A stretch of 38,377 bases of DNA from positions 1-38,377 of the IMG/VR virus record IMGVR_UViG_3300009285_003105, one strand, 5' to 3'. Below the pieces are notes generated by a model. The model worked only from the letters and a program-made list of their open reading frames with translations. It was not told the origin of the DNA and ran no database searches. The DNA comes from a virus. Position 1 is the first letter of the stretch. Every line of letters starts with the position of its first letter. Of this stretch, positions 2,277 to 16,099 are shown piece by piece. The position numbers and the translations under genes were made by a program.

Positions 2277-2650
2277 TAGGGAAGGCTTATTTGCCTGATA
2301 TGCACATGGACACCAAGTATCTGCCCGCGCTCGCGCTCGATCGTGATGCGATCGAACTGCTCATCATCCTGGATCACGCCGGCATGCACGATGCCATCTA
2401 GGCACGCTTTAGCAACGTTGTCCAGATCCCGACGGCGCTTATCTGGTGGCGTGACAAGCAGATGAATCTCCAGACGCCCCGCGACCCCGCACTTGAACAG
2501 GCGTTGCTCCATGCAGGCCGCGATGACCGCAGAACGGTAGGCTCGACCATCACGGCTGATCAGGTGGCGACCAGCGAGTTTCCCGCGCGTGGGGTGGCGC
2601 CAGTATCTGTTCACGCTTGGAGGATAAGGCAGGTGGAAGGAAATCATCAT
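2276..2650 (-). CDS. rusA: RusA-family Holliday junction resolvase
   Basis: This 124-residue protein is the normal RusA length. RusA is a dimeric nuclease that nicks Holliday junctions symmetrically and trims branched phage replication intermediates. Visible signatures are PPSVNRYWRH near the N terminus, RRDLDN at 73-78 (D75 and D77), a lysine at 81, and the DD pair at 95-96 in GVIQDD. These match the catalytic aspartates and lysine of E. coli RusA. It works alongside Bet, the YqaJ-type exonuclease and NinB encoded on the plus strand. The upstream sequence lacks a clear ribosome-binding site and overlaps a fragment resembling the start of the barrel-protein gene. Confidence 0.9.
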   Translation of the reverse strand: MMISFHLPYPPSVNRYWRHPTRGKLAGRHLISRDGRAYRSAVIAACMEQRLFKCGVAGRLEIHLLVTPPDKRRRDLDNVAKACLDGIVHAGVIQDDEQFDRITIERERGQILGVHVHIRQISLP

Positions 2651-2680
2651 GATGACACAAAACTATTGATTAAATCCTAA
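2648..2680 (+). pseudogene. short remnant of a paralogue of the 10773 exported-protein gene
   Basis: In one frame this stretch reads D-D-T-K-L-L-I-K-S then stop. It matches the start of the exported-protein gene at 10773 (D-E-D-T-K-L-L-I-K-S-Y). About 24 of 29 bases agree. Four of the five differences are silent third-position changes, and the stop TAA replaces TAT. That pattern suggests a once-coding paralogue that diverged and was then cut down. It overlaps the start region of rusA on the other strand. Confidence 0.4.
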
Positions 2681-2974
2681 TTTAGCTCGATGGTGAGTCC
2701 GTTGTGATGGGCAACAGGCCGCCCACCCAAATAATCCTGAGTTAGCGCACTGTCGCATCTAGCCCGACGGAGCCGCCGCTGCTTAGAGCTCCTATCACCT
2801 GTAACCGTGGATAGGATTCAGCCAGCCTTTGCTAGTCGGTTACACTAGGCCCCTCCGGGTGCTGGACTTTATGCCCGCCCTTGCGTCTTTGGAGGTGTCC
2901 CGAGTAGACGCACTCTTAAAAACCATGCCCCTCGCGTCTGCATACCGCGAGCATAGTCATCGGAATCGGCGGCC
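2681..2974. other. region without a convincing gene
   Basis: No reading frame here has a ribosome-binding site and believable protein. Several inverted repeats are visible: TGTAACC with GGTTACA around 2800-2855, and CTCGCG with CGCGAG around 2931-2949. A replication origin or structured RNA is possible. I see no iteron array. A 64-codon minus-strand frame (2916-3110) is not supported. Confidence 0.35.
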
Positions 2975-3004
2975 TTGACGGGGATTTGGTACTTCGTGGA
3001 TAAT
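2975..3004 (+). promoter_or_regulatory. sigma70-like promoter for a small RNA
   Basis: TTGACG at 2975-2980, an 18-base spacer and GATAAT at 2999-3004 form a good sigma70-like promoter pointing opposite to the early operon. Predicted initiation is near 3011, and the transcript would meet an intrinsic terminator about 85-90 bases later. Confidence 0.5.
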
Positions 3005-3010
3005 GATTCC

Positions 3011-3099
3011 GTCGGTCGCACGACATTTTATGCACAGGCGCCGCCATGGTGTCAACAAGTGCATAAACGGACAGGGCCATCTTAACCGGTGGCCTTTTT
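3011..3099 (+). ncRNA. candidate OOP-like antisense small RNA
   Basis: A roughly 89-nt transcript is bounded by the promoter at 2975-3004 and the terminator at 3075-3099. It is strongly structured. TTTATGCAC (3027-3035) pairs perfectly with GTGCATAAA (3059-3067), and inside that GGCGCC (3037-3042) pairs with GGTGTC (3048-3053) around a five-base loop. It lies antisense to the early operon transcribed from the Cro promoter, as lambda OOP RNA does, so it could modulate that mRNA. Position and structure are seen; function is inferred. Confidence 0.45.
3075..3099 (+). terminator. intrinsic terminator of the small RNA
   Basis: GGCCA (3075-3079) pairs with TGGCC (3090-3094) around a ten-base loop and is followed by five T residues (3095-3099). 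The stem is short but correctly placed downstream of the promoter at 2975. Confidence 0.45.
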
Positions 3100-3190
3100 C
3101 GTTTTGTCATGGGTGAAGCGCCGCACTCCGTTGTTACTTCTTGGCCGCGCCGCTCAACTCGGCGATAGGCGGAATTCTGTCTAATACACT

Positions 3191-3959
3191 GTTAGGGGCC
3201 GAAAAGCGCTACCTGTCGAGTCTCAGCCATGTATCTATCCGTGGCTGCTAGCCAGTAGTCAGCGTCAATCTCGCACCCCACCAAATCCACCCCAAAATAG
3301 TGTGCTGCAATCGCAATGCTTCCGCTTCCGAGGTGGGTATCTAAAACCTTCATTCCTGGCTGTGCGTACCGCTGCAGCAGCCACTCATACAACTTCACCG
3401 GCTTCTGTGTCGGGTGAACCCGGCGTTCGTTCAACGCTTTGTTTCCTTGCTGGCGCTGGCTACCTACCGCCTCTCCTTGCATCATCCCGCGCCACATATA
3501 GCGCACCACGTCCACGCGCTCGTTTAGGCTGCAGTAGGCTATCTCCGCGCCGCTCTGGTCGCTGCCATCGTTCACCTTATCCCAAACAATCGCGCCACCT
3601 TGCAGCCTCACCGGCATGTAGTTAGCGCCCCAAATAATCTGATGCTTTGCAACCCTTCGCAGCTCTGCAAAATACTCCGTCGTGGGCGGTTCTTTGTCCC
3701 AGTCTTTTTTTGCGTAGCCGCCATCCATACAACGCAAAGTGCCTCCGTTCTTCTGCTTCACATTGCTGCAGCGGTTTGTCCCGCCGTCCTCCCCGCGTCC
3801 GTAGGGCGGGTCTACTATAGCCAGGTCAAAGGCTGCATCTGGCATCTTCGCCATATAGTCCATGCAGTCAACATTAAGCAGTTCAATCATTGGCTTTCTA
3901 CAATCGGCCCCTAACCAGTCAATCCACGGGACCGGCTACGCCGGCCCGTGATTTCCGGC
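3191..3959 (+). mobile_element. integron-type gene cassette C1 (methyltransferase)
   Basis: The segment begins with GTTAGGGGCCGA (3191-3202) and the exact reverse complement TCGGCCCCTAAC occurs at 3904-3915, followed by an attC-like palindrome. In an integron cassette the 5' core and the attC R'' core are complementary, because they meet in the circular form; that is what is seen here. By its extrahelical bases the attC points to the plus strand, whereas the methyltransferase inside reads on the minus strand. The left junction has no attC, so this is the first cassette of the array. Confidence 0.75.
3192..3890 (-). CDS. DNA adenine/cytosine-N4 methyltransferase, permuted (beta-type) order
   Basis: This 232-residue enzyme would transfer a methyl group from S-adenosylmethionine to an exocyclic amino group of A or C in DNA. 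The catalytic motif DPPY is at residues 27-30. The SAM-binding motif, here LDTHLGSGS, comes late in the chain (about 185-193), and HPTQKP precedes it. That order is typical of beta-class amino-methyltransferases. No restriction endonuclease is adjacent, so it probably protects phage DNA or marks regulatory sites; this is inference. The TAA stop lies inside the GTTAGGGG core at 3191, and the ATG sits just inside the attC at the other end. The gene therefore fills the whole cassette, antisense to the attC polarity but in line with the phage early operon. Confidence 0.85.
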   Translation of the reverse strand: MIELLNVDCMDYMAKMPDAAFDLAIVDPPYGRGEDGGTNRCSNVKQKNGGTLRCMDGGYAKKDWDKEPPTTEYFAELRRVAKHQIIWGANYMPVRLQGGAIVWDKVNDGSDQSGAEIAYCSLNERVDVVRYMWRGMMQGEAVGSQRQQGNKALNERRVHPTQKPVKLYEWLLQRYAQPGMKVLDTHLGSGSIAIAAHYFGVDLVGCEIDADYWLAATDRYMAETRQVALFGP

Positions 3960-3966
3960 ATTATGA
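3909..3966 (+). mobile_element. attC site 1
   Basis: R'' is CCCTAAC (3909-3915). The arms AATCCACGGGACCGGC and GCCGGCCCGTGATT pair if one C and one A are left unpaired in the 5' arm, the extrahelical-base pattern of aadA-type attC sites in sense orientation. The R' core is altered to ATTATGA (3960-3966). Positions 3911-3959 are the exact reverse complement of 14735-14783 in attC5. Confidence 0.75.
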
Positions 3967-4073
3967 GTCACGAAAAATTCCAGCACACGCACAACAAAAC
4001 CAAGTTCGCCCGTCGCGGCTGTAGTGCCAAACATCATGCTGGCAAACGCGGCAGTAGGAAGTCCGGCTCATAA
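3963..4073 (+). CDS. 36-residue basic peptide of cassette C2, unknown function
   Basis: This is a very basic, histidine- and lysine-rich short protein (starts MSHEKFQHTHNK, ends SRKSGS) with no recognisable family. The ATG overlaps the altered core at the end of attC1, and the TAA at 4071-4073 lies in the first core of attC2, exactly as a cassette gene is placed. No strong ribosome-binding site is seen. The cassette ends match as ATTATGAG (3960-3967) and CTCATAAT (4067-4074). Support is the cassette geometry rather than homology. Confidence 0.4.
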   Translation: MSHEKFQHTHNKTKFARRGCSAKHHAGKRGSRKSGS

Positions 4074-4157
4074 TAACTGGCTGGAGCCGACGCCGGAGGC
4101 GATGCGCGGTGTTTTCTGTTGGTTTCATGGCTGACGCGGCTCAAAACGGCGTTAGGA
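4068..4157 (+). mobile_element. attC site 2
   Basis: An imperfect palindrome runs from the TCATAAT/AATAAC core to GTTAGGA (4151-4157). The 5' arm TGGAGCCGACG and the reverse complement of the 3' arm (TGAGCCGCG) agree except for an extra G and an extra A in the 5' arm, the paired extrahelical bases expected of attC in plus orientation. The central variable region is about 40 bases. Confidence 0.7.
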
Positions 4158-4734
4158 GTCACCGCCATGGTTTTTCCACCCACAATCGAACACATATAAA
4201 TAGCACCATTGGCCAACACACAAGCAATCCACCTATCGCCCCCCATCCCAAAGACTGGAGAATCAATTGGAAGCTAATACCGTTTCCCTTCTCACCGCCG
4301 CTCTTGCTGGGGGCGCCGCTGGTGCTGGCATTTCCAGCATCCTTACTCTTATTGGCCAATGGCTCAATAGACGAAGCGATAGTCAGAGGCATTTTGTTGA
4401 CCTCTGCTTTAAGGCCGCCACTGAAAACCTCATCCGCGACACCGAAGCAACAAAGGCCAGAGGAAAAGGTGCTATCGCGCCGCTCGATTTGTATCTGATC
4501 CACATGCTTAGCCTCATGCGTATCTCTACCAGCAATGAATTGTCCCAGGAGAAAATGATCGACGAGTGGGTACGTATCAGCCGGAACACCAGAGAAGCCA
4601 TGGAGAACGCAATAAAGCAAGATATTGCACGTCGCAATCATAAGAAAATTGACTCCTAACTATGTTTTCAACCGGACGCGGTGATACGGCGCACCGTTTC
4701 CTGTTGTCCCTTAGCCCGCGCCGGTTAAAACGGC
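4151..4734 (+). mobile_element. integron-type gene cassette C3
   Basis: The cassette starts GTTAGGAGTC (4151-4160), and the exact reverse complement GACTCCTAAC occurs at 4651-4660 at the head of attC3. One gene (4267-4659) lies inside in sense orientation, with its stop codon in the core. This is the textbook one-gene cassette layout. Confidence 0.75.
4267..4659 (+). CDS. membrane-anchored cassette protein, unknown function
   Basis: This 130-residue protein has an N-terminal alanine/glycine-rich hydrophobic segment (about residues 6-30, with SSILTLIGQWL), likely a single membrane anchor. A charged, helical cytoplasmic part follows. The start is a TTG at 4267 with GGAG seven bases upstream; no ATG fits better. 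The TAA stop is part of the attC3 core CCTAAC. The overlapping minus-strand frame of 160 codons is compositionally poor and contradicts the cassette direction, so I reject it. The function is unknown. Membrane-anchored small proteins are common cassette products, and superinfection or phage defence is only a guess. Confidence 0.6.
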   Translation: MEANTVSLLTAALAGGAAGAGISSILTLIGQWLNRRSDSQRHFVDLCFKAATENLIRDTEATKARGKGAIAPLDLYLIHMLSLMRISTSNELSQEKMIDEWVRISRNTREAMENAIKQDIARRNHKKIDS

Positions 4735-4741
4735 GTTAGGC
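4654..4741 (+). mobile_element. attC site 3 (clearest example)
   Basis: R'' is TCCTAAC (4654-4660) and R' is GTTAGGC (4735-4741). The 5' arm GTTTTCAACCGGACGCGG equals the reverse complement of the 3' arm except for one extra C and one extra A. This is the same two extrahelical bases, in the same arm and with the same spacing, as in aadA attC sites. The GTTAGGC that closes the array also forms the stop codon of the phage gene at 4736 on the other strand. Confidence 0.8.
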
Positions 4742-4903
4742 CCCAATGTGTTTCACTAATGCCCCGACCAGAAACAGAGTATCGCCGCAATCCGGACAAT
4801 CAAGGATCAGATATGAACTATCTCGTTCGTTGTCTTGAAAGATTGCGACTGCGAATGCCTCTTTGTGTTCGCATTTTTTTTTGCGAGACGCTTTTCTTCC
4901 CAT
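4736..4903 (-). CDS. small zinc-ribbon-like phage protein
   Basis: This is a 55-residue protein: a basic start (MGRKASRKKK), then a cysteine-histidine pair (CEH) and CPDCG, a likely metal site. I prefer the ATG at 4903, though a GTG at 4930 is possible. The TAA stop lies in the core that ends the left cassette array. Joining the flanks of the array restores GCCTAACAGTG, so the cassettes appear to have inserted exactly at this stop codon without changing the protein. It overlaps the previous gene in another frame across a run of nine A residues, so a frameshifted single gene is an alternative. Confidence 0.5.
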   Translation of the reverse strand: MGRKASRKKKCEHKEAFAVAIFQDNERDSSYLILDCPDCGDTLFLVGALVKHIGA

Positions 4904-5060
4904 CCTCAAAACCGGCTTTGTATGTTTCACGGATCACCTCATGAAGTTTTGCAATCATCCCAGCACCAACGGTTTGATACCCTCCGATTTCGGAGAGGCC
5001 ATCAATCCAATCCCATTGGTCCAGAAATTTCTTGTTTCGTAACATGTTAAACAGACTCAT
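4818..5060 (-). CDS. small phage protein, unknown function
   Basis: This encodes 80 residues. The first 60 look like a real protein (helical, with RETYKAGFEDGKKSVS), while the arginine-rich tail reads through the start of the next gene in a different frame. The frame change coincides with nine consecutive A residues (4877-4885), where a +1 or -2 slip would fuse it to the zinc-ribbon-like protein downstream. It lies in the early operon after Cro. The ATG at 5060 has no clear ribosome-binding site and overlaps the end of the upstream gene, suggesting coupling. Confidence 0.5.
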   Translation of the reverse strand: MSLFNMLRNKKFLDQWDWIDGLSEIGGYQTVGAGMIAKLHEVIRETYKAGFEDGKKSVSQKKMRTQRGIRSRNLSRQRTR

Positions 5061-5220
5061 GGTGTTCAGGTTTAACTAAACTTGCGTTATTCGAATCTTC
5101 GGAAAATATCAACCACTCAGGTCCCTCGTCTTCGTCGCCACAATTCCGCCAGACGCGCGAAAACCGCGGGACGCACACTTCGTCGAGTTGGGTATAGTGA
5201 AAAATTTCCAGTTGTTCCAT
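5047..5220 (-). CDS. small acidic early protein, unknown function
   Basis: This is a 57-residue acidic protein (MEQLEIFHYTQLDEV start, with a DEDEGPEW stretch) and no known family. The ATG at 5220 comes immediately after the T-run of the intrinsic terminator that follows the Cro-type gene; the GC-rich 3' arm of the hairpin would be its only ribosome-binding site. An alternative ATG at 5238 lies in the terminator loop. It is the first gene beyond the terminator in the early operon, a place where lambdoid phages use antitermination. Confidence 0.45.
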   Translation of the reverse strand: MEQLEIFHYTQLDEVCVPRFSRVWRNCGDEDEGPEWLIFSEDSNNASLVKPEHHESV

Positions 5221-5251
5221 AAAAAAGCCCGCCTTCATGGTACCGGCGGGC
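5221..5251 (-). terminator. intrinsic terminator after the Cro-type gene (tR1-like)
   Basis: On the minus strand GCCCGCC pairs with GGCGGGC around an 11-base loop and is followed by six T residues. It stands 10 bases past the Cro-type stop codon, like lambda tR1 after cro. Genes beyond it (5220 down to 887) would need read-through or antitermination. Confidence 0.8.
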
Positions 5252-5261
5252 TAACCCTCGG

Positions 5262-5483
5262 CTACCCAACTACCGAGGGAACAACGGAGGAGCCCGTCGG
5301 AAATAAATCTGGTCGAATGCGCGAAAGTGTCAGCCCGGTTATCTCGGCCACGCGCGCCGCGTGACGCTTCGGCACCCGGCGCCACTGGTAAATCGCACTG
5401 GTGGAGATATCGAGCTGTCGCGCCAGCCTTGAAGCTCCGCCGGCGGCAAGAAAGATCGGTCGCATCGTTCTTGGGTATTTCAT
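5262..5483 (-). CDS. YdaS/Cro-family transcriptional regulator
   Basis: This 73-residue protein is a compact helix-turn-helix regulator. Helix 2 to helix 3 read ASRLARQLDISTSAIYQWRR at about 17-36, followed by the conserved VPKRHA segment and a C-terminal ITGL-x-LSRIRPDLFP tail typical of the YdaS/Cro group. It should bind the three similar sites in the 98-bp divergent region and switch the two early promoters. The gene starts two to three bases from the predicted transcription start, so its mRNA is probably leaderless. No CI-type repressor is encoded next to it. Confidence 0.85.
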   Translation of the reverse strand: MKYPRTMRPIFLAAGGASRLARQLDISTSAIYQWRRVPKRHAARVAEITGLTLSRIRPDLFPTGSSVVPSVVG

Positions 5484-5491
5484 ATTCCGCT

Positions 5492-5520
5492 TATATAACG
5501 GTATTTCCGCATCTTGTCAA
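5492..5520 (-). promoter_or_regulatory. early minus-strand promoter (pR-like)
   Basis: On the minus strand TTGACA (5520-5515), a 17-base spacer and TATATA (5497-5492) form a strong promoter. Initiation about seven bases downstream falls near 5485, only two bases before the ATG at 5483. Confidence 0.75.
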
Positions 5521-5555
5521 GAATCTTCTCAAGGCCAAAAAAATACCTTGACAAG
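5513..5555. promoter_or_regulatory. three operator-like sites between the divergent promoters
   Basis: Three near-palindromic 9-mers are visible: CTTGTCAAG (5513-5521), CTTCTCAAG (5525-5533) and CTTGACAAG (5547-5555). The outer two overlap the -35 boxes of the two promoters. The layout resembles a three-site Cro/CI operator. The likely ligand is the YdaS/Cro-type protein encoded next to it. Confidence 0.6.
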
Positions 5556-5575
5556 GGCGCGCGGGCGGCCATAAT
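5548..5575 (+). promoter_or_regulatory. early plus-strand promoter (pL-like)
   Basis: TTGACA (5548-5553), a 16-base spacer and CATAAT (5570-5575). Initiation about seven bases downstream coincides with the A of the ATG at 5582, so the transcript is predicted to be leaderless. Confidence 0.7.
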
Positions 5576-5581
5576 CAGCTC

Positions 5582-5833
5582 ATGAAAGAAATCGAGACAC
5601 GAGTACAAGGTATTCCCTGCCGCGCATTAGTTGAATACCACGCCGCCATGAAGGGCCGGATCGAGCCAGGCAGCGGCGGCGCACCGATCGAGCCGGACGA
5701 GCCGGCGAGTGTGTACATCCTCGATATCCTCGACCGCCGTGGCCGCCCCGCCCCATGGCTGGCGCGCAAAATGACCGAGCGCGACAAAGACCGCCTCGTG
5801 AACGAGACATTTGTCCAAGTGGGGGCAATCTAG
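5582..5833 (+). CDS. first gene of the plus-strand early operon, unknown function
   Basis: This is an 83-residue protein. It begins MKEIETRVQGIPCRALVEY, has a proline/acidic linker (GGAPIEPDEPASV), then ILDRRGRPAPWLARKMT. The overall pattern resembles small uncharacterised proteins found at the head of recombination operons in proteobacterial phages. There is no helix-turn-helix, so it does not replace CI. It has no ribosome-binding site, and the predicted transcript begins at its start codon, as with lambda cI mRNA from pRM. It probably leads an operon with CsrA, Bet and the exonuclease. Confidence 0.65.
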   Translation: MKEIETRVQGIPCRALVEYHAAMKGRIEPGSGGAPIEPDEPASVYILDILDRRGRPAPWLARKMTERDKDRLVNETFVQVGAI

Positions 5834-5868
5834 CCACAACAACTAACCAGACGTTATCTAAAATGATC

Positions 5869-5887
5869 GAGGTGCGAACATGAAAAC
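5869..5887 (+). repeat. third copy of a gene-junction repeat
   Basis: GAGGTGCGAACATGAAAAC also occurs at 11481-11499 and, with one change, at 13149-13167. Each copy encodes ...E-V-R-T-stop overlapping a start M-K-T, and contains a GGAGGT-like ribosome-binding site. It marks borders of accessory genes in this genome. Confidence 0.6.
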
Positions 5888-5902
5888 CAAGGAGGAGGCA
5901 CT

Positions 5903-6388
5903 ATGCTTTTTGAAATCACGCACAAGCAAGACAGATCGGTTTTGTTCTCTTTGGAGACGGAGAGTATAAAACTGTGTGTAGAAGCAGCGGCGAGGTCTGG
6001 CACAAACCTCGGAGGCACAAACCTCGGAGGCGCAAACCTCGGAGGCGCAAACCTCAGAGGCGCAAACCTCGGAGGCGCAAACCTCGGAGGCGCAAACCTC
6101 GGAGGCGCAAACCTCGGAGGCGCAAAAATCCTTGACGATGTCATCATCACCAAAGCGCCCATTCAGATCAGCGGCTTTGAGTGGCCAGTGACCATTTGGG
6201 ATAGACACATGCAAATTGGTTGTGAGTTTCACTCGCATGAGGAGTGGCAAAATTTCTCCGAGGCGGATTGGCTCCGCATGGGATCGAAAGAAGCTCTCAA
6301 CCTGAAGCACAAGCAATTCCCGCTACTGCTTGGTTTGTGTAACTGGCACAGGCCGAAATCCGAGAAAGAAAACCAAGTGGAAGATTGA
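5903..6388 (+). CDS. pentapeptide-repeat phage protein
   Basis: This 161-residue protein has three parts: a 32-residue N-terminal segment, nine tandem pentapeptides of the A(N/T)LGG type (about residues 33-77), and a C-terminal domain containing [14 protein letters not shown]. Pentapeptide repeats form a right-handed quadrilateral beta helix. In some proteins this mimics DNA and inhibits gyrase, but here the role is unknown. The C-terminal domain with HMQIGC resembles other phage pentapeptide proteins. A strong AAGGAGGAGG ribosome-binding site precedes the ATG. The stop overlaps the csrA start (TGATG), so csrA is translationally coupled to it. Confidence 0.75.
5998..6126 (+). repeat. 15-bp tandem repeats encoding pentapeptides
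   Basis: About nine near-identical copies of a 15-base unit related to GGAGGCGCAAACCTC. Identity at DNA level, including silent positions, points to recent expansion by slippage or unequal recombination. Confidence 0.9.
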
Positions 6389-6567
6389 TGCTCGTGCTCA
6401 CGCGCCGCGTCGGCGAAATCATAACTATCGGTGACGACGTAACCGTCACTGTGCTCGGTATTAACAGCGGGCAGGTTAAGTTGGGCGTGCACGCGCCCAC
6501 GGATATCGAGGTGCACCGCAAGGAAATCTTCGATCGCATCAAGACCGAACAAACCAGGAGAAAGTAA
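6388..6567 (+). CDS. csrA: CsrA/RsmA RNA-binding translational regulator
   Basis: This 59-residue protein covers the full CsrA length. CsrA dimers bind GGA motifs in mRNA leaders and block or stabilise translation. The RNA-contact residues L4, R6, R7 and R44 (in VHRKEIF) are all present, as is [10 protein letters not shown] at the start. The ATG at 6388 matches the usual CsrA start and overlaps the upstream stop as TGATG; the TTG three bases earlier is unlikely. Being encoded just before Bet in the early operon suggests that the phage adjusts host or phage mRNA translation early. The targets are unknown. Confidence 0.92.
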
Positions 6568-6568
6568 A

Positions 6569-7387
6569 ATGCAACAGCAGGCAATTGTACAGAAGGGCAA
6601 AAACACCGGACTAATTTCAAAACTGGCTGAACGGTTCAGCGTCGAGCCAGAAAAGATGATGACCACGCTCAAGGCAACGGCCTTCAAGGTGCGCGACGGT
6701 GAAATTACCAATGAACAGATGATGGCGTTGTTGGTCGTTGCCAATCAGTACGGGCTGAATCCGTTTACCAAGGAACTATTCGCGTTCCCCGACAAGGGCG
6801 GAATCGTGCCGGTGGTTTCGGTTGATGGCTGGGCGCGAATTATCAACGAACACCCGGCCATGGATGGCGTTGAGTTTGTGGACGGCCCGGAAGAAAACGG
6901 CATCCCGGCATGGATTGAATGTGTCATCTACCGCAAGGATCGCGCACACCCGACCAAGGCACGCGAGCGATTCAAGGAAGTGAGGCGCGATACGCAGCCG
7001 TGGAAATCACATCCAGCCAGGATGATGCGCCACAAGGCGCTGATTCAATGCGCGCGAATCGCCTTCGGGTTCGCTGGAATCTATGAACAAGACGAGGCCG
7101 AGCGCATTGTTGAAATGGGCAACGCGGAAGTGGTGTCAGTCGTGCCTCCTGGCCTCGGGCCATATCCGGACGACCAGTTCAATGCCAACATAGCCGCATG
7201 GGCTCATCTCATCACGTCCGGCGGCAAGACGCCGGATAGCATCCTGAGCACCATCAGAACCAAATATACCCTGACCGCCGAGCAGGAGAACAGGATCAAG
7301 GCATTGGCCAAGCCGGCGGCGCAGGTCGATGTCGATAAGGAATGGATGGATGAGTACAACAAGGAAGAGACAAATGAAAACGCTTAA
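6569..7387 (+). CDS. bet: Bet/RecT-family single-strand annealing recombinase
   Basis: This 272-residue protein is similar in length to lambda Bet (261). It anneals complementary single strands produced by the partner exonuclease. Recognisable segments include NQYGLNPFTKELFAFPDKGG and GWARIINEHPAMDGVEF at about 52-97, and PTKARERFKEVRRDTQPW, typical of the lambda-Bet branch of the family. It has an AGGAG ribosome-binding site and begins just after csrA. It overlaps the exonuclease start by 14 bases, as expected for a functional pair. Confidence 0.92.
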   Translation: MQQQAIVQKGKNTGLISKLAERFSVEPEKMMTTLKATAFKVRDGEITNEQMMALLVVANQYGLNPFTKELFAFPDKGGIVPVVSVDGWARIINEHPAMDGVEFVDGPEENGIPAWIECVIYRKDRAHPTKARERFKEVRRDTQPWKSHPARMMRHKALIQCARIAFGFAGIYEQDEAERIVEMGNAEVVSVVPPGLGPYPDDQFNANIAAWAHLITSGGKTPDSILSTIRTKYTLTAEQENRIKALAKPAAQVDVDKEWMDEYNKEETNENA

Positions 7388-8911: not shown

Positions 8912-9775
8912 ATGAACATACCCGCTAAATTGCATCCGCAAAGAGAAATTCTAAGCGCCCTGGCTGCATCGGGGAATTGGATGTTCCGCATGGATGCGGA
9001 TGGAACAAGTCATAATAATTTCGTATGGCGCGGCACAGGCGAATGGACTGTCTGCGACAAATGGAGCACCAAACCCACCTGTGATAGCGGCGGATTATTC
9101 GGTCAGTCGCCGCGCGGCTGGGGCTATGCACATTTCGGGACCCGGCCGGTATTTTGCGAAACTGACAGCATCCAAGTGCCCGTTGGTTCTGACAAAATAA
9201 AAACACCACGTGCCAAAATCCTTTTCACCGGTGGCGAGGCGCTACAGGCGCTGGTGACAGTCTGTCCACAATTCGGCGGCTCGCTCGATCTGAGCGGCTG
9301 CAACCTGGAAGGCATCGTCCTCCCGACCAGGGTCGGCGGCTCGCTCGATCTGCGCGGCCGCAACCTGAAAGGCATCGTCCTCCCGACCAGGGTCGGCGGC
9401 TCGCTCGATCTGCGCGGCCGCAACCTGGAAGGCATCGTCCTCCCGACCAGGGTCGGCGGCTCGCTCTATCTGCGCGACTGCAACCTGAAAGGCATCGTCC
9501 TCCCGACCAGGATCGGCAGCTCGCTCGATCTGAGCGGCTGCAACCTGAAAGGCATCGTCCTCCCGACCAGGGTCGGCGGCTCGCTCTATCTGCGCGACTG
9601 CAACCTGGAAGGCATCGTCCTCCCGACCAGGGTCGGCGGCTCGCTCTATCTGCGCGGCTGCAACCTGGAAGGCATCGTCCTCCCGACCAGGATCGGCGGC
9701 TCGCTCGATCTGCGCGACTGCAACCTGAAAGGCATCGTCCTCCCGACCAGATATAAATCGAAATTGATTCTCTAA
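8912..9775 (+). CDS. leucine-rich 20-residue tandem-repeat protein
   Basis: This is a 287-residue protein. The N-terminal 115 residues are a non-repeated domain with several tryptophans, followed by eight tandem 20-residue units of the form GGSLDLRGCNLEGIVLPTRV and a short tail. The regular L-x-L-x-x-C-x-L-x-x-I-x-L-P spacing predicts a solenoid, either leucine-rich or beta-helix-like, suited to protein or sugar binding. The ATG at 8912 has AAGGAG upstream; an in-frame ATG at 8867 would add the leftover NinB N terminus. It sits between the exonuclease and ninB, bounded by a 26-bp duplication, so it looks like a recent accessory insertion. The role is unknown. Confidence 0.75.
   Translation: MNIPAKLHPQREILSALAASGNWMFRMDADGTSHNNFVWRGTGEWTVCDKWSTKPTCDSGGLFGQSPRGWGYAHFGTRPVFCETDSIQVPVGSDKIKTPRAKILFTGGEALQALVTVCPQFGGSLDLSGCNLEGIVLPTRVGGSLDLRGRNLKGIVLPTRVGGSLDLRGRNLEGIVLPTRVGGSLYLRDCNLKGIVLPTRIGSSLDLSGCNLKGIVLPTRVGGSLYLRDCNLEGIVLPTRVGGSLYLRGCNLEGIVLPTRIGGSLDLRDCNLKGIVLPTRYKSKLIL
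9274..9751 (+). repeat. eight 60-bp tandem repeats
   Basis: Eight nearly identical 60-base units, each holding GGCATCGTCCTCCCGACCAG, encode 20-residue repeats. Variation is limited to a few codons (D/Y, S/R, C/R, E/K), consistent with recent copy-number change. Confidence 0.92.
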
Positions 9776-9858: not shown

Positions 9859-10299
9859 GTGACGGAACAACACTTCATTCTGCGCGACGGACACGTCCGC
9901 GATCGGGCTATGCTGGCGATCAACACCATGCCGCTAAAACCGACCCTGATGGAGGTGGTCATTCGGCCGTGCGAGAAAACCCGCACCCTGGGCCAAAATG
10001 CCCGATACTGGGCGACCCTCTCGGAGCATCTGCGACAGATAAACGCCACAGTGAATCAAATCGCCTCCGATTCCGGTCATACGCCGTTGGAGATAAAACG
10101 CGGATTGGCCGGACAATTGGCACCCGAGGAGATAGCTATTCTATTTGCCACGCGACCGGAGGTCGCCCATGAGGTGCTGAAGATGGTCTGCAACATTCCG
10201 ACAAGCACGCGGCTCGGCACAAAAAAATCCATAGAATTCGAGGAGCGTGTGACCGCCGCGATGGACGGAATCCTGGCCCTCGCGCGAGGACTGACATGA
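9859..10299 (+). CDS. ninB: NinB-family recombination protein
   Basis: This 146-residue protein matches lambda NinB (Orf) in length and layout: RPCEKTRTLGQNARYWATL near the middle, then a helical C-terminal half. NinB binds single-stranded DNA and acts as a recombination mediator with Bet and exonuclease. The start is a GTG at 9859. The duplicated copy at 8864 shows that the ancestral start (GTGATGGAACAAC) overlapped the exonuclease stop, so these two genes were adjacent before the repeat-protein gene entered. Confidence 0.88.
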   Translation: MTEQHFILRDGHVRDRAMLAINTMPLKPTLMEVVIRPCEKTRTLGQNARYWATLSEHLRQINATVNQIASDSGHTPLEIKRGLAGQLAPEEIAILFATRPEVAHEVLKMVCNIPTSTRLGTKKSIEFEERVTAAMDGILALARGLT

Positions 10300-10610
10300 T
10301 TCGAACCGACACGGAACAATGCTGGATGGACGCCGTGCGGGCGGTCGGGTGCATCATGTGCCGCCGTTTCGGTCAGTCCATTGGAGCGAATAAAATCGAG
10401 CTGCATCATGTGGCGGAAGGCTCCGGAATGCGTTCGCAATTTGCCATTGCGCCTTTGTGCTCTGAACATCATCGCGGTTCCGCCGGCCTGCATGGCCTGG
10501 GGGTGAAACGATTCATCGCCTTGTATCGCCCCCACGGGGACACCGAATACGGTCTATTGGTTTGGACAAACGAGGACTTGGCCGGACAATGGAGGAAATA
10601 TGATCATTGA
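10296..10610 (+). CDS. Ref-like HNH nuclease family protein
   Basis: This is a 104-residue protein with a zinc/HNH arrangement: CIMC at 19-22, LHHV at about 37-40, PLCSEHHRG at about 53-61 and GLHGLG at about 64-69. This is the pattern of phage Ref-type (recombination enhancement) HNH proteins; P1 Ref is a RecA-dependent nuclease. The ATG overlaps the ninB stop (ATGA-type overlap at 10296-10299). The recombination-gene context supports a DNA-processing role. Activity depends on histidines that I can see but not test. Confidence 0.75.
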   Translation: MIRTDTEQCWMDAVRAVGCIMCRRFGQSIGANKIELHHVAEGSGMRSQFAIAPLCSEHHRGSAGLHGLGVKRFIALYRPHGDTEYGLLVWTNEDLAGQWRKYDH

Positions 10611-10743
10611 GCAATCCGCCGTCAAAATCGTCGTACGCGCGCCTAGACGCAAACTTTGCGCGCGCATCATGTGGTTGCCGCTTGCACGCTTTAAACGATT
10701 GCGCTTGGAACAATTGGCCTCGGGTAAGATTAGGTTGGCTTAA
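10600..10743 (+). CDS. 47-residue basic protein, unknown function
   Basis: This short, very basic protein (starts MIIEQSAVKIVVRAPRRK, ends ASGKIRLA) has an excellent GGAGG five bases before its ATG and overlaps the end of the HNH gene by 11 bases, so it is probably translated by coupling. It may be a nucleic-acid binder judging by charge. No family is recognised. Confidence 0.55.
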   Translation: MIIEQSAVKIVVRAPRRKLCARIMWLPLARFKRLRLEQLASGKIRLA

Positions 10744-10772
10744 TCAATCGTAAAATGACCAAGGAGACTTCA

Positions 10773-11836: not shown

Positions 11837-13162
11837 ATGATCGATGCGCTGACAAGCGATCAAGAGATGTCCCTGCGCGAATATCGTGAGGAATGTCTAC
11901 GGTCCGGGCATAGTTGCGCGCCATCCGATCGCGCCGCGGCCGAGACTGCTTTTCGCGGCATGTATGCGCGGCTGGGGCGGGGACAGCCCCGCGTGTGGTG
12001 GTGCGATGGGCCCGCCACCGGATCGATACTGCGGGATTTGCTCGGCGCCAGTCCCGGCCCCAGTCTCGGCGCCAGTCCCGGCGCCAGTCCCGGCGCCAGT
12101 CTCGGCGCCAGTCTCGGCGCCAATCTCGGCGCCAATCTCCTCGCCAGTCTCCGCGCCAGTCTCGGCCCCAGTCTCGGCCCCAGTCTCGGCGCCAGTCTCG
12201 GCGCCAGTCTCGGCGCCAATCTCCTCGCCAGTCTCCGCGCCAGTCTCGGCGCCAGTCCCGGCGCCAGTCCCGGCGCCAATCTCCTCGCCAGTCTCCGCGC
12301 CAATCTCGGCGCCAGTCTCGGCGCCAATCTCCTCGCCAGTCTCGGCGCCAATCTCGGCGACAATCTCGGCGCCAATCTCCTCGCCAGTCTCCGCGCCAGT
12401 CTCGGCGCCAATCTCGGCGACAATCTCCTCGCCAGTCTCCGCGCCAGTCTCGGCGCCAGTCCCGGCGCCAGTCCCGGCGCCAGTCTCGGCGCCAGTCTCC
12501 GCGCCAATCTCGGCGCCAGTCTCCGCGCCAGTCATTGGTGGTCATGCTGGGGCCAACATGAAATATATTGGCCCGCTTTTTACGATTGGCCGGACAGATT
12601 CCTGCGAAAAATGTACGGCGAAAAAGATCGGGCGCTGCTCGACATGTGGCTAACCCTGGGCAAAAGCACGGGCTGGTGGCAGCCATACGAGAATGGCGTG
12701 GTGGCGTGCGAGCGCCCGGAGCGCCAGGCCCTGGACGCTGAGGGGCGATTGCACCACGAGACGCTGCCTGCGTTCCGGTGCCGGGACGGCTATGAGTTCG
12801 CGGCGTGGCACGGGGTAACGGTCCCCACCGAGTGGATCACGGAGCGTAAGCCTACCCCGGCGCTAGCGCTCGGTTGGGGCAACGTCGAACAGCGGCGCGC
12901 GGCGTGCGAGATAGTGGGGTGGAATACGATCCTGGGCGAACTGAGCGCGCGCGTGATCGACGCGCATAAATCTCCGGAGATAGGCGTTCTATTGGAGGTG
13001 GATTTGCCTGACAGCGGCCCGGAGCGATTCCTGCGCGTGCGCTGCGGCACCGGGCGTGAATTCGCAATCCCGGTGCCGCGCGAAATCGAAACGGCGCATC
13101 AGGCGAATGCCTGGACTTATGGCCTCCAGGCGACCCAACTCAACCCGGAGGTGCGAACGTGA
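11837..13162 (+). CDS. tetrapeptide-repeat protein with DUF6745-like C-terminal domain
   Basis: This is a 441-residue protein with three parts. The N-terminal 68 residues are non-repeated. About 41 tandem four-residue units of the LGAS/LGAN type (about 69-232) follow. The C-terminal part begins WGQHEIYWPAFYDW and contains WWQPYENGVVACERP, a RLHHETLPAFRCRDG motif and a NVEQRRAA segment, typical of DUF6745-type proteins in my memory. The period is four, not five, so this is not a pentapeptide solenoid. The function is unknown. Like its upstream partner it is enclosed by 29-bp direct repeats, so it behaves as a transferable two-gene unit. Confidence 0.7.
   Translation: MIDALTSDQEMSLREYREECLRSGHSCAPSDRAAAETAFRGMYARLGRGQPRVWWCDGPATGSILRDLLGASPGPSLGASPGASPGASLGASLGANLGANLLASLRASLGPSLGPSLGASLGASLGANLLASLRASLGASPGASPGANLLASLRANLGASLGANLLASLGANLGDNLGANLLASLRASLGANLGDNLLASLRASLGASPGASPGASLGASLRANLGASLRASHWWSCWGQHEIYWPAFYDWPDRFLRKMYGEKDRALLDMWLTLGKSTGWWQPYENGVVACERPERQALDAEGRLHHETLPAFRCRDGYEFAAWHGVTVPTEWITERKPTPALALGWGNVEQRRAACEIVGWNTILGELSARVIDAHKSPEIGVLLEVDLPDSGPERFLRVRCGTGREFAIPVPREIETAHQANAWTYGLQATQLNPEVRT
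12041..12534 (+). repeat. 12-bp tandem repeats, about 41 units
   Basis: Units of the form CTCGGCGCCAGT with substitutions (CCC/CTC, CGC/GGC, AAT/AGT). Higher-order blocks of several units are themselves repeated, which indicates expansion by unequal exchange. All six frames stay open through the region, creating many spurious reading frames. Confidence 0.92.
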
Positions 13163-13837: not shown

Positions 13838-13924
13838 TAGACGGAGGCGAGAATGTACGGAAAGATTAAGATCGGCGCATTGATTTCACAAGACCGCGGC
13901 TAGAGGTTGAGCGCCATGTTAGAG
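13838..13924 (-). mobile_element. decayed attC-like boundary of the right array
   Basis: The 3' half (GGTTGAGCGCCATGTTAGAG) closely resembles the end of attC4 (GGTGGAGCGCCGTGTTAGCC). The 5' half is only weakly similar to attC6 (TAGACGGAGGCGAG against TAACGCAGAGGTGAG), and its CTAAC core is lost. I read it as a degenerate terminal attC. Confidence 0.35.
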
Positions 13925-14290
13925 CCCTTGTACGACGTGCCGTGCGACGGCTGCACGCGCTGCTGCCACAACGATGCGGTGCGGCTGCTGGCTGGCGACG
14001 ACCTGAGCAAGTACCAGACGGAGCCGCATCCGTACATGCCGGAAGCGAGGATGCTGGCGCACAAACCGGACGGCGCCTGCGTGTACCTCGGCGACGAAGG
14101 CTGCACGATCCACGGCACGAAGCCGCAGATGTGCCACGAGATGGACTGCCGACGCATAACGCAGGCGATTACCTGGACGCAGGCACGGAAGATGGAGGCG
14201 CGAGGCGCACTGCGCATGGACATTTGGCGGCGTGGCAAGGAGCTACTGCGCATGGGCTCTAACGCCAAGCTCACCGGGAGCGCGCCGTAG
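13916..14290 (+). CDS. YkgJ-like cysteine-cluster protein (cassette C4)
   Basis: This 124-residue protein has the signature of the YkgJ-type zinc/iron cysteine-cluster family. CDGCTRCC is at 10-17, then CVYLGDEGCTIHGTKPQMC at about 55-73 and CR shortly after, giving eight or more cysteines placed to bind metal. Members are uncharacterised; a metal-bound redox or binding role is plausible. The ATG abuts the cassette core (ATG-TTA-GAG), with AGAGGT as ribosome-binding site. The 3' end runs through the attC4 palindrome. The cassette ends match as GTTAGAGCCC (13918-13927) and GGGCTCTAAC (14254-14263). Confidence 0.75.
   Translation: MLEPLYDVPCDGCTRCCHNDAVRLLAGDDLSKYQTEPHPYMPEARMLAHKPDGACVYLGDEGCTIHGTKPQMCHEMDCRRITQAITWTQARKMEARGALRMDIWRRGKELLRMGSNAKLTGSAP
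13918..14263. mobile_element. integron-type cassette C4
   Basis: Perfect inverted 10-mers GTTAGAGCCC and GGGCTCTAAC bound the YkgJ-like gene, the relation expected for the two ends of one integron cassette. The gene reads on the plus strand, while the neighbouring attC sites have minus-strand polarity. Confidence 0.7.
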
Positions 14291-14320
14291 CGCGCGATCC
14301 GGTGGAGCGCCGTGTTAGCC
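14257..14320 (-). mobile_element. attC site 4
   Basis: CTAAC (14259-14263) to GTTAGCC (14314-14320). The arms GCTCACCGG and CCGGTGGAGC pair with one extra base in the 3' arm, and GCGCGC pairs around a GTA tip. The extra base lies in the 3' arm, so by comparison with aadA-type sites the site is oriented to the minus strand. Confidence 0.7.
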
Positions 14321-14323
14321 CTC

Positions 14324-14352
14324 TTGACATGTGACATGTCACGTGCTATAAT
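14324..14352 (+). promoter_or_regulatory. consensus sigma70 promoter with palindromic operator
   Basis: TTGACA (14324-14329), exactly 17 bases, TATAAT (14347-14352). The spacer holds the perfect palindrome GTGACATGTCAC (14331-14342), an obvious repressor site. Such placement allows tight autoregulation, as in toxin-antitoxin operons. A small hairpin (GTAGC/GCTAC, 14359-14374) lies at the predicted start of the transcript. Confidence 0.85.
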
Positions 14353-14389
14353 GTGTTTGTAGCAATCGAGCTACGACAAAAGGAGCAAA

Positions 14390-14587
14390 ATGAATAAGCC
14401 AAAAGTTTATCATTGTCTGGGGCGCGCTCAACGACACATACCGCGCAAATTCTACGATGAGTTTCGACAGACCCACGGAAAATCCGCATGCGACTTCCAC
14501 TTCGATAGTGAGGCCGACGCGGCAGAATTTATAGCCAAGCATGGTCTCGGCGAATACTTGGAGCCAACCACTGGTTTCGATCTGTGA
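14390..14587 (+). CDS. first gene of cassette C5, small protein of unknown function
   Basis: This is a 65-residue protein (MNKPKVYHCLGRAQRHIPRK start, with FDSEADAAEFIAKHG near the end). It has a strong AAGGAG ribosome-binding site and its own consensus promoter. Its stop overlaps the GTG start of the next gene (GTGA). The size, the overlap with a probable DNA-binding partner and the operator-bearing promoter recall toxin-antitoxin pairs, which are frequent integron cassette cargo. No toxin fold is recognised, so this remains inference. Confidence 0.65.
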   Translation: MNKPKVYHCLGRAQRHIPRKFYDEFRQTHGKSACDFHFDSEADAAEFIAKHGLGEYLEPTTGFDL

Positions 14588-14733
14588 GCAAGAACGCAGC
14601 CCAAAGGAAACGCGACGAGCGCGCAAGGATGCGCGCCAAGGGCTACACGCTACGGCAGGTGTGGGTTCACCCGAAAGACTGGGAACGAGTGCGCCGATAC
14701 CTGGAGCGTGTAGCGAAGGCCCGAGAGGGCTAA
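14584..14733 (+). CDS. small ribbon-helix-helix-like protein (possible antitoxin/autoregulator)
   Basis: This is a 49-residue basic protein starting with GTG at 14584. After a charged N terminus (SKNAAQRKRDERARM) comes RAKGYTLRQVWVHPKDWERV: a short strand followed by helix, the form of small ribbon-helix-helix proteins seen in phages and MazE-like antitoxins. It would be suited to bind the palindrome in the promoter of its own operon. The TAA stop lies in the CTAAC core at the end of the cassette. The family is assigned by pattern only. Confidence 0.55.
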   Translation: MSKNAAQRKRDERARMRAKGYTLRQVWVHPKDWERVRRYLERVAKAREG

Positions 14734-14785
14734 CGCCGGAAATCACGGGCCGGCGTAGCCGGTCCCGTGGATTGACTGGTTAGCG
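14728..14785 (-). mobile_element. attC site 5
   Basis: GGCTAAC core to GTTAGCG. On the minus strand the arms are AATCCACGGGACCGGC and GCCGGCCCGTGATT, with extra C and A in the first, so polarity is minus. Its 14735-14783 segment is the exact reverse complement of 3911-3959 in attC1. Confidence 0.75.
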
Positions 14786-15106
14786 GTAATTGACAGGAGA
14801 TAAACCATGAAACAACGTAAACCAAAATTGGATTCTAACCGCATTCCTTACGCTGTAGTTTCCATAGATAAATTGATTGAAATAGCAGAAAGGATAGTGA
14901 AACTTGAAAGTGAAGTTGAGCACCTGAAACAAACGGCAGGGAATACAGAGAGCCAGATGATAGAGCTTCTTGTTCCGCATATCTCTGATTTCCGGGACGG
15001 AAAAGTTTTTATCCGCGCCCAGGGCGAAGATGGGGCGATCTATCGTGCCGAGGTTCAAATCGTCGGGGCGGTGGGCGTAGACCCAGAGTATTAAATGACC
15101 GCTAAC
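14779..15106. mobile_element. integron-type cassette C6
   Basis: The ends are GTTAGCGGT (14779-14787) and ACCGCTAAC (15098-15106), a perfect inverted 9-mer. A single gene (14807-15094) fills the cassette. Confidence 0.7.
14807..15094 (+). CDS. coiled-coil cassette protein, unknown function
   Basis: This is a 95-residue protein. A predicted coiled coil lies at about 20-45 (IDKLIEIAERIVKLESEVEH), followed by a mixed strand/helix segment ending GAVGVDPEY. A GGAG ribosome-binding site lies seven bases before the ATG. The stop is four bases before the core region of attC6. The long antisense frame (14780-15298) has poor composition and is rejected. No function can be assigned. Confidence 0.65.
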   Translation: MKQRKPKLDSNRIPYAVVSIDKLIEIAERIVKLESEVEHLKQTAGNTESQMIELLVPHISDFRDGKVFIRAQGEDGAIYRAEVQIVGAVGVDPEY

Positions 15107-15182
15107 GCAGAGGTGAGCCGCGATGACCGATGATAAAAATAGTGGCGCCGACAAAAGAGTCGGCTCCAGCGACGTGTTAGAG
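15100..15182 (-). mobile_element. attC site 6
   Basis: CGCTAAC core (15100-15106) to GTTAGAG (15176-15182). GTGAGCCGC in the 5' arm pairs with the 3' arm GTCGGCTCCAGC, leaving an extra G and A opposite; the extra bases sit in the 3' arm, giving minus polarity. The 5' arm contains GAGGTG, which serves as ribosome-binding site for the gene at 15123. Confidence 0.7.
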
Positions 15183-15332
15183 CGCGCTGCTGACCATCTG
15201 CGGACAATGGCCCCACACATCCGGGCACGGCTCACTGCCCAACTGCTGGAGCAGGTATGCAGTGAGTTGAGGAAAGACCGCGCTTGGTTTAGGGCCACTT
15301 TTGGCTATGAGCATTCTAACGATGGAGATTAG
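15123..15332 (+). CDS. small protein starting inside attC6, unknown function
   Basis: This is a 69-residue, mostly helical protein (AADHLRTMAPHIRARLTAQLLEQVCSELRK in two parts). The ATG at 15123 lies in the variable loop of attC6, with GAGGTG from the attC arm as ribosome-binding site. A GTG that overlaps the core (GTG-TTA-GAG at 15174) is an alternative start. Either way translation begins at the recombination site, so part of the coding sequence is built from attC. The right cassette edge is only partly matched (8 of 10 bases at 15312-15321). Confidence 0.5.
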   Translation: MTDDKNSGADKRVGSSDVLERAADHLRTMAPHIRARLTAQLLEQVCSELRKDRAWFRATFGYEHSNDGD

Positions 15333-15372
15333 CGGCACGGCGTAACTCGCGTCCGGTTCAAGGTGATGTCAG

Positions 15373-15627
15373 ATGACATACGCAAATGATAACTGGACAA
15401 AGCTGGTTGAGGAATACGGCCCTTTGATTGGGAAGAAGTTTCTCGATGTTGAAGACAACGAATATATTTTCATTGGGTTGCTCCACGGACAAGATGACTT
15501 CTATTTTGTGATGTGGCGAGCCGGGGCCGTGAGACTACTGACTTGTGTTGGGATACCGGAACAGATGGGGTTTGTGCCATCTAATGCCGCTCATGAGCCG
15601 ACGGTGGACGACAAGCAAGGAGACTAG
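15373..15627 (+). CDS. small acidic protein, unknown function
   Basis: This is an 84-residue acidic protein beginning MTYANDNWTKLVEEYGPLIG. It has a beta-rich middle (YIFIGLLHGQDDFYFVMW) and an acidic tail (EPTVDDKQGD). An AAGGTGATG ribosome-binding site precedes the ATG. It lies in the decayed part of the right cassette array; cores on either side are not convincingly paired. No family is recognised. Confidence 0.5.
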   Translation: MTYANDNWTKLVEEYGPLIGKKFLDVEDNEYIFIGLLHGQDDFYFVMWRAGAVRLLTCVGIPEQMGFVPSNAAHEPTVDDKQGD

Positions 15628-15631
15628 GAAT

Positions 15632-15901
15632 ATGATCGAAAATACCGAAATACCAAAGTCCTCTGATGTAACCGATCGGCGCATGGGCTCGCACTTGAAT
15701 GACGGGTTAGGCCGCAAGGGCCTGAGGCACGTGATTGACGATGTACGAAGCATCACTGCGTGGCCGATGGACGATGGGACAACTGTTTTTGATTTCAAGA
15801 ATGGCGATCTTGAAACCAGCCTGCGGATTTCTAACGAAGCCATTAGTGCGATTCACTATCTCTGGATTTCACTAAAAGCGAACAAAGGGATTGCGGCCTG
15901 A
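15632..15901 (+). CDS. small protein, unknown function (cassette C9)
   Basis: This is an 89-residue protein. Its second half is well formed (LRHVIDDVRSITAWPM, then FDFKNGDLETSLRIS), while the first 25 residues are encoded by an attC-like stretch ending in GTTAGGCCGC (15706). An AGGAG ribosome-binding site and ATG are at 15632. The stop lies in GCGGCCTGAC (15893-15902), which pairs with GTTAGGCCGC at nine of ten positions. It thus shares the start-inside-attC habit of the 15123 gene. Confidence 0.5.
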   Translation: MIENTEIPKSSDVTDRRMGSHLNDGLGRKGLRHVIDDVRSITAWPMDDGTTVFDFKNGDLETSLRISNEAISAIHYLWISLKANKGIAA

Positions 15902-15915
15902 CGCAGAGGTGAGCC
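15896..15915. mobile_element. truncated attC half-site at the right edge
   Basis: CCTGACGCAGAGGTGAGCC repeats the first half of attC6 (CGCTAACGCAGAGGTGAGCC). The second half is missing, and phage sequence with the tRNA gene follows. This marks the right end of the cassette region. Confidence 0.45.
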
Positions 15916-15959
15916 ACACATGATAAAGACAACAGAAAGCCCGGCGCGCGAACATGAAA

Positions 15960-16035
15960 GACTCGGTAGCTCAATTGGCAGAGCAGCGATCTCCAAAATC
16001 GCAGGTTGGGGGTTCGAGTCCCTCCCTTGTCGCCA
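15960..16035 (+). tRNA. tRNA-Trp (anticodon CCA) with two acceptor-stem mismatches
   Basis: A 76-base tRNA folds by eye: D stem GCTC/GAGC, anticodon stem GCGAT/ATCGC with loop CTCCAAA (anticodon CCA, Trp), T arm GGGGG-TTCGAGT-CCCTC, discriminator G73 and an encoded CCA. The acceptor stem GACTCGG against CCTTGTC has mismatches at pairs 4-69 (T-T) and 5-68 (C-T). It may be functional but weak, or decaying. It supports UGG decoding or could be a former integration site; no integrase is present. Confidence 0.85.
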
Positions 16036-16099
16036 ATTTATTTTCGTGGATGAGGAAACGATTCCCATCATAACTGTTGCGAGAATTTAGGAGATAAAC

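Follow-up and report, generated by a model that had tools for sequence, protein, structure and literature searches.

Integrons are known as bacterial gene-stockpiling devices. The locus analyzed here raises the question of whether a phage that has no integrase can carry integron cassettes, and whether these cassettes move. The window, meaning the whole stretch of DNA that was analyzed, is a 38,377-base IMG/VR virus record with an 11-bp repeat at both ends; the phage is called W below. We consider it very likely that W carries two integrase-less cassette arrays (CALINs), whose cassettes are most likely moved by an IntI supplied in trans and which probably act as anti-restriction modules.

Setting and parts of the two arrays

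W encodes a terminase, a portal, a major head protein, and an internal virion protein, together with RecT, YqaJ, RusA, and a Cro/YdaS-like gene. The original prediction held that no integron integrase is present in the genome; this was borne out, as no tyrosine recombinase is encoded in the W record (no PF00589 match). The left array reads on the plus strand and sits in a leftward cluster with the RusA-like and Cro/YdaS-like genes, which fits the predicted setting in a phage early operon. A second, right array (14257-15182, minus strand) falls outside the segment first described. It consists of about six cassettes, flanked on one side by a transglycosylase (lysis-type) gene and on the other by the structural genes. 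The left and right arrays point in opposite directions, and both oppose the direction in which the surrounding phage genes are transcribed. A tRNA-Trp gene (15960-16035) borders the right array on its outer side; W itself has no integrase.

The attC sites were searched with a covariance model (R1) trained solely on seven known attCs: class 1 integron plasmids contributed five (those of aadA1, aadB, and cmlA1 among them), and Tetrasphaera phage TJE1 the other two. Run on the window without filters, R1 gave as its top six matches three plus-strand sites (3909-4741) and three minus-strand sites (14257-15182); the seventh-ranked match was background (11.4 bits, E 1.4). The three left sites for which an attC layout had been predicted are thus all among the six matches above background (31.5, 20.6, and 16.1 bits). 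In 177 kb of array-less relatives R1 found nothing better than E 1.1, and Polaribacter phage P12002L gave only a weak match (E 0.64), for which reason it was left out of the comparison of gene and attC direction below. Both W arrays meet the definition of a CALIN, at least two attCs of the same polarity within about 4 kb as called by a covariance model. W does not meet the definition of a complete integron, having no integrase and only an attI-core-like leader.

The first left cassette (3192..3960, plus) is a DNA methyltransferase unit with attC B. Its N6/N4 DNA methyltransferase gene (3192..3890, minus; PF01555) has its stop codon in the R box and reads against its own attC. AttC B (3909..3966, plus; R1 20.6 bits, E 0.006) carries a hairpin conserved among phages, and its crossover triplet is ATT in place of GTT. 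The second cassette (3961..4151, plus) contains a gene for a 36-residue basic peptide (ATG at 3963) and attC C (4068..4157, plus; R1 16.1 bits, E 0.08). The third (4152..4735, plus) harbors an unknown protein and attC D (4654..4741, plus; R1 31.5 bits, E 1e-5). The predicted methyltransferase and 36-residue peptide stand as cargo, whereas the "membrane-anchored protein" could be either of two candidates that overlap, one on each strand: 4267-4659 (plus, 130 aa, TTG start) or 4159-4641 (minus, 160 aa, ATG start). A family search with the plus-strand candidate gave no match.

A hand-written scanner and DNA folding agree with R1, except at the middle left site, which scores weakly. Bottom-strand folding had been proposed as a check on all three left sites and supports the outer two (z -3.2 at 3909-3966 and -3.5 at 4654-4741); at 4068-4157 the fold is no better than shuffles (z -0.1), and attC C is therefore the weakest site. 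The start of each left cassette is complementary to the R'' box of its own attC, over 12 bp without mismatch (3191-3202/3904-3915), 8 bp (3960-3967/4067-4074), and 11 bp (4151-4161/4650-4660). The first two lengths are as predicted; the third had been given as 10 bp. None of 400 shuffles of 3101-4800 contained two pairs of matching ends of at least 10 bp (mean 0.0025).

Extrahelical bases were expected in the 5' arm of each site. They are clear in the outer two left sites, where C and A are present as in aadA1, and the middle site clearly shows just the A; in the right array, attC G has C and A and attC F has C. In a class 1 integron control, all five attCs read best on the gene strand and most have C/A extrahelical bases, which bears out the polarity rule. 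A misreading of attC polarity can be ruled out, since that control came out correctly and the cuts in the comparisons below fall where the extrahelical bases predict.

The first cassette of the right array (13918..14262, minus; 10-bp matching ends) contains a CxxCxxCC-domain gene (13916-14290, plus), and its attC is truncated on the lysis-gene side. The next (14263..14733, minus) has attC F (14257..14320, minus; R1 31.6 bits, E 1e-5; fold z -3.8) and two small plus-strand genes, 14390-14587 and 14584-14733, with a stop in the R box. It is followed by a cassette that we call X (14734..15105, minus), which consists of attC G (14728..14785, minus; R1 29.5 bits, E 3e-5; fold z -3.5) and a 95-aa gene (14807-15094, plus). 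AttC G has the conserved phage hairpin and is a 96% inverted copy of attC B (3909-3966). AttC H (15100..15182, minus; R1 27.0 bits, E 1.4e-4) comes next. Three further cassettes (15106..15905, minus) are more degenerate and hold the genes 15123-15332, 15373-15627, and 15632-15901, all on the plus strand, with R boxes near 15316-15322, 15580-15585 / 15706-15712, and 15895-15902. R1 detects no attC in these three; they were delimited from the sequence and from homology of 15333-15598 to a sister phage (G002). Many array proteins had no match in the family search.

The left array is headed by a leader of 28-33 bp, GATAGGCGGAATTCTGTCTAATACACTG/TTAGGG (3164..3197, plus; here and below the slash marks the cut). 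Near-identical copies occur at three places in G002 and in phage L010/L011/L014. All copies are on the attC strand and abut a G/TT cassette start, apart from one copy in G002 with G/TG. The leader resembles attI1 (CCCTAAAACAAAGTTAGGC); this likeness was noticed first and scored only afterwards, and is just a lead. That the leader is attI-like in role is a guess from its sequence, its function being inferred. Searches of plasmids and isolate phages did not detect it. An attI-like core at a cassette start has a precedent in delta-attI cassettes (PMC12901181).

Probable cassette exchange between phages

The sister phage G002 (39,924 b) is 74-86% identical to W over most of the alignable backbone, with one 1.2-kb block at 96%. 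Cassette X, in contrast, is 100% identical in the two phages over about 380 bp. The identity begins at GGCTAAC and ends just past CGCTAAC, which are the R boxes and the points of attC cleavage. X lies in the right array in W and in the left array in G002, and is flipped relative to the backbone as the polarity of the arrays demands. Among viral contigs, its 95-aa protein is present only in these phage contigs. The 36-residue peptide cassette of the left array of W has a homologue in the right array of G002, with the homology limited to the cassette. The cassette at 14263..14733 is in part common to the two phages; in G002 the attI-like leader replaces the next attC exactly at GGCTAAC.

A second comparison involves two other phage contigs, L135 and G013, whose sequences agree at 99.97% along 10,817 bp and part at an attC crossover. 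At this point G013 has three cassettes that L135 lacks; the first of them encodes a methyltransferase and an HNH nuclease. L135 resumes at G/TTGGGCGTC, the sequence downstream of the three cassettes of G013 (98% over 161 bp). The junctions are GGGCG/TTAGCA and GGGCG/TTGGGC and share 5 bp. This is a single with/without pair, and L135 reaches only 156 bp beyond the junction. The boundaries of cassette X and the L135/G013 junctions place recombination at G/TTRRRY; the evidence for this is comparative only. Together with the attC scores and the matching ends, the shared cassette and the with/without pair support the central claim of the original prediction, integron cassettes without a resident integrase.

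An unlikely alternative, though the one that survives best, is that the arrays are fossils. The array would derive from one illegitimate capture from a host integron and would have been immobile since, with the observed variation produced by homologous recombination between phages. The lack of an integrase in the W record, the degenerate sites of the right array, and the mutated crossover of attC B are all compatible with this, and the 96%-identical block common to G002 could be a homologous exchange. However, homologous recombination does not readily account for a cassette that is identical yet flipped and in the other array, with the identity stopping at the R boxes. Nor does it explain why L135 and G013 differ by three cassettes exactly between crossover points, with only 5 bp of homology at the junction.

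Every record used is a metagenome assembly, and the W record might be an assembly chimera of a phage and a bacterial integron. In two contigs (L008 and L009), two phages are indeed connected by the identical cassette X. We regard a chimera as very improbable, because arrays lie beside phage genes in many contigs from different samples, including the near-complete G002 and G013, and because pattern scans of bacterial and archaeal species genomes gave no copy of the attC type. Moreover, L008 and L009 both contain the stretch of W's right array that runs from X up to the structural genes, at 99.97-99.99% identity.

The possibility that the palindromes belong to another hairpin element (IS200/IS605 ends, REP, or MITE-like) is barely worth entertaining: a transposase gene does lie between two attC matches in one contig (G012), but a model built from true attCs recovers the sites with the correct polarity, the cassette ends match their own R boxes, the crossovers are at G/TT, and no transposase is found among the W array proteins with a family match.

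L008 and L009 come from different samples and link G002 to W through X. We considered whether they are natural cointegrates of two phages; this is implausible, as one genome would contain two structural modules, and both were treated as misassemblies. They were probably misassembled through X, although a cointegrate is not excluded. X adjoins the right flank of W in three contigs and the left flank in the window alone.

Gene orientation and an attC type shared among phages

In the cassettes of the phage contigs, the ORFs with the best ribosome sites run backwards to their own attC in 28 of 29 calls; for small ORFs these calls are uncertain. The cassette genes supported by a family match are all reversed, namely the methyltransferases in W, G013, L007, G012, L114, and L075. 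A weak methyltransferase match in G002, the Mom gene in G002, and the HNH gene in G013 are reversed as well. In addition, 80 viral loci were fetched by similarity to the methyltransferase and all set with that gene on the plus strand. Among these, R1 detected attCs in eight other phage contigs, 16 in total and every one on the minus strand (12/12 at E < 0.05), and several of the eight contigs have matching cassette ends around the methyltransferase. Exceptions to the reversal are TJE1 and the 36-residue peptide of W, which reads the normal way. The phage contigs therefore do not satisfy the canonical cassette criterion of a gene and attC on the same strand.

With the reversed layout, the bottom strand of the attC is the coding strand of the operon. 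This is a possible reason for the reversal and is untested. In Vibrio, moving the attC bottom strand to the lagging template led to more excision (PMC11023631). The reversal can easily go unnoticed: a published metagenome pipeline matches each ORF to an attC of its own strand (PMC7370490), and cassettes in phages may be under-counted as a result.

The 27-bp core of attC B and attC G recurs without mismatch in a further 14 viral contigs, which derive from several metagenomes and represent about six additional phages, and it is always flanked by TAAC and GTT R boxes. The conserved hairpin is thus carried by about seven distinct phages overall. In 84,980 species genomes of bacteria and archaea, scanned twice by pattern, this attC did not occur, and it was likewise absent from isolate phages and plasmids. 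The same cassettes had been expected in chromosomal integrons; the scans, which looked for the attC sequence only, revealed no host integron bearing the conserved attC. Such an integron may simply be unsampled.

Cargo, a possible integrase source, and known systems

Most of the recognizable cargo of the arrays is concerned with DNA modification (methyltransferases and Mom), and their probable role is therefore that of anti-restriction modules that can be exchanged. In the mechanism that we propose, cassettes would be gained, lost, and exchanged at the R-box G/TT of folded attC bottom strands. The mover would most likely be an IntI acting in trans, from the host or from a co-infecting phage that bears an integron. 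Because most cassette genes lie backwards to their own attC, they are co-directional with the phage operon, and phage promoters could drive their expression. Three elements of this mechanism are inferred: that IntI is the agent, where it comes from, and that the phage gains protection from restriction; there are no data on integrase activity. Counting against this reading are the weakness of attC C, the mutated crossover base of attC B, and the failure to find a host integron.

A source of integrase exists among phages. The contig IMGVR_UViG_3300018411_000811 (G030, 15,263 b; L044/L158) encodes, in order, an attC, a methyltransferase, an integron integrase, and a terminase large subunit. The methyltransferase lies in an attC cassette, is reversed, and has 74% amino acid identity to that of W. 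The integrase (337 aa) matches TIGR02249 with 327 bits against a cut-off of 265, and its closest solved structure is recorded as IntI4. Of 50 viral records searched, G030 alone passed the TIGR02249 cut-off. The region 2629-7270 of G030 is a probable phage-encoded one-cassette integron. Both phages have the reversed attC-methyltransferase cassette, whereas only G030 has its own integron integrase beside it; that an integrase of this type acts on W is an inference.

Integrase-less cassette arrays in phages are already known. Qi et al. (2023) described 17 phages with CALINs, five methyltransferases encoded in cassettes, and phage attCs on which IntI1 can act; the attCs of TJE1 were assayed with IntI1 in that work (PMC9892861). 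The original prediction had called such cassettes barely described in podoviruses, which needs to be qualified accordingly. The arrays of W share with TJE1 and the other published CALINs the lack of an integrase, the methyltransferase cargo, and an attC structural class that IntI1 recognizes. They differ in that the genes of TJE1 run with the attC and those of W-type arrays against it, and in that one cassette is found here in two phages and two arrays, in addition to the with/without pair. The main text of Qi et al. (2023; PMC9892861) does not mention Mom, whereas the W-type arrays include Mom in G002.

Like sedentary chromosomal integrons such as the Vibrio superintegron, W-type arrays have similar attCs for many different genes and a single polarity per array; in contrast, they have no adjacent intI, reside in phages, carry reversed genes, and contain only about three to seven cassettes. 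With class 1 integrons and delta-attI cassettes (PMC12901181) they share the C/A extrahelical bases and an attI-core-like leader at cassette starts, which sometimes follows an attC, as in delta-attI cassettes. Unlike class 1 integrons, W has no intI1 and no recognized resistance genes, and the likeness of its leader to attI is a resemblance only. New here are the flipped identical cassette X, the pair with and without three cassettes, the attC hairpin seen in about seven phages and in no species genome scanned, the reversed genes, the DNA-modification cargo, and the integrase-bearing phage contig with a related methyltransferase cassette.

The seemingly phage-restricted attC, the reversed genes, the DNA-modification cargo, and a presumed supply of integrase by host or phage raise the possibility that phages keep a cassette pool of their own, apart from bacterial integrons. 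We put this forward tentatively and would lean slightly against it at present. If true, such a pool would let phages pass counter-restriction genes to one another. Phages seem to trade DNA-protecting genes like plug-in modules. If they do keep and trade cassettes, integron recombination would be a fast route for reshuffling phage anti-restriction genes, and phages would be a vehicle for cassette movement between bacteria. The L135/G013 pair offers a starting point for asking whether restriction resistance changes with the cassettes.

Several further observations concern cargo. The Mom-family gene of G002 (10125-10754; L021) is present as a cassette and has distant relatives (27% identity) in Arthrobacter phages. 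The transposase gene of G012 (14711-16069; L026) belongs to phrog_506 and lies between its two same-polarity attC matches as if it were a cassette. In L046 (1493-3461), two near-identical attCs (2513-2596 and 3128-3212) with matching cassette ends lie upstream of a methyltransferase that is 71% identical to that of W. Three genes of the window (5999-6133, 9213-9750, and 12041-12560) contain long near-perfect in-frame repeats of 15, 60, and 12 bp; these are pentapeptide-like and leucine-rich-like, and their copy number looks labile.
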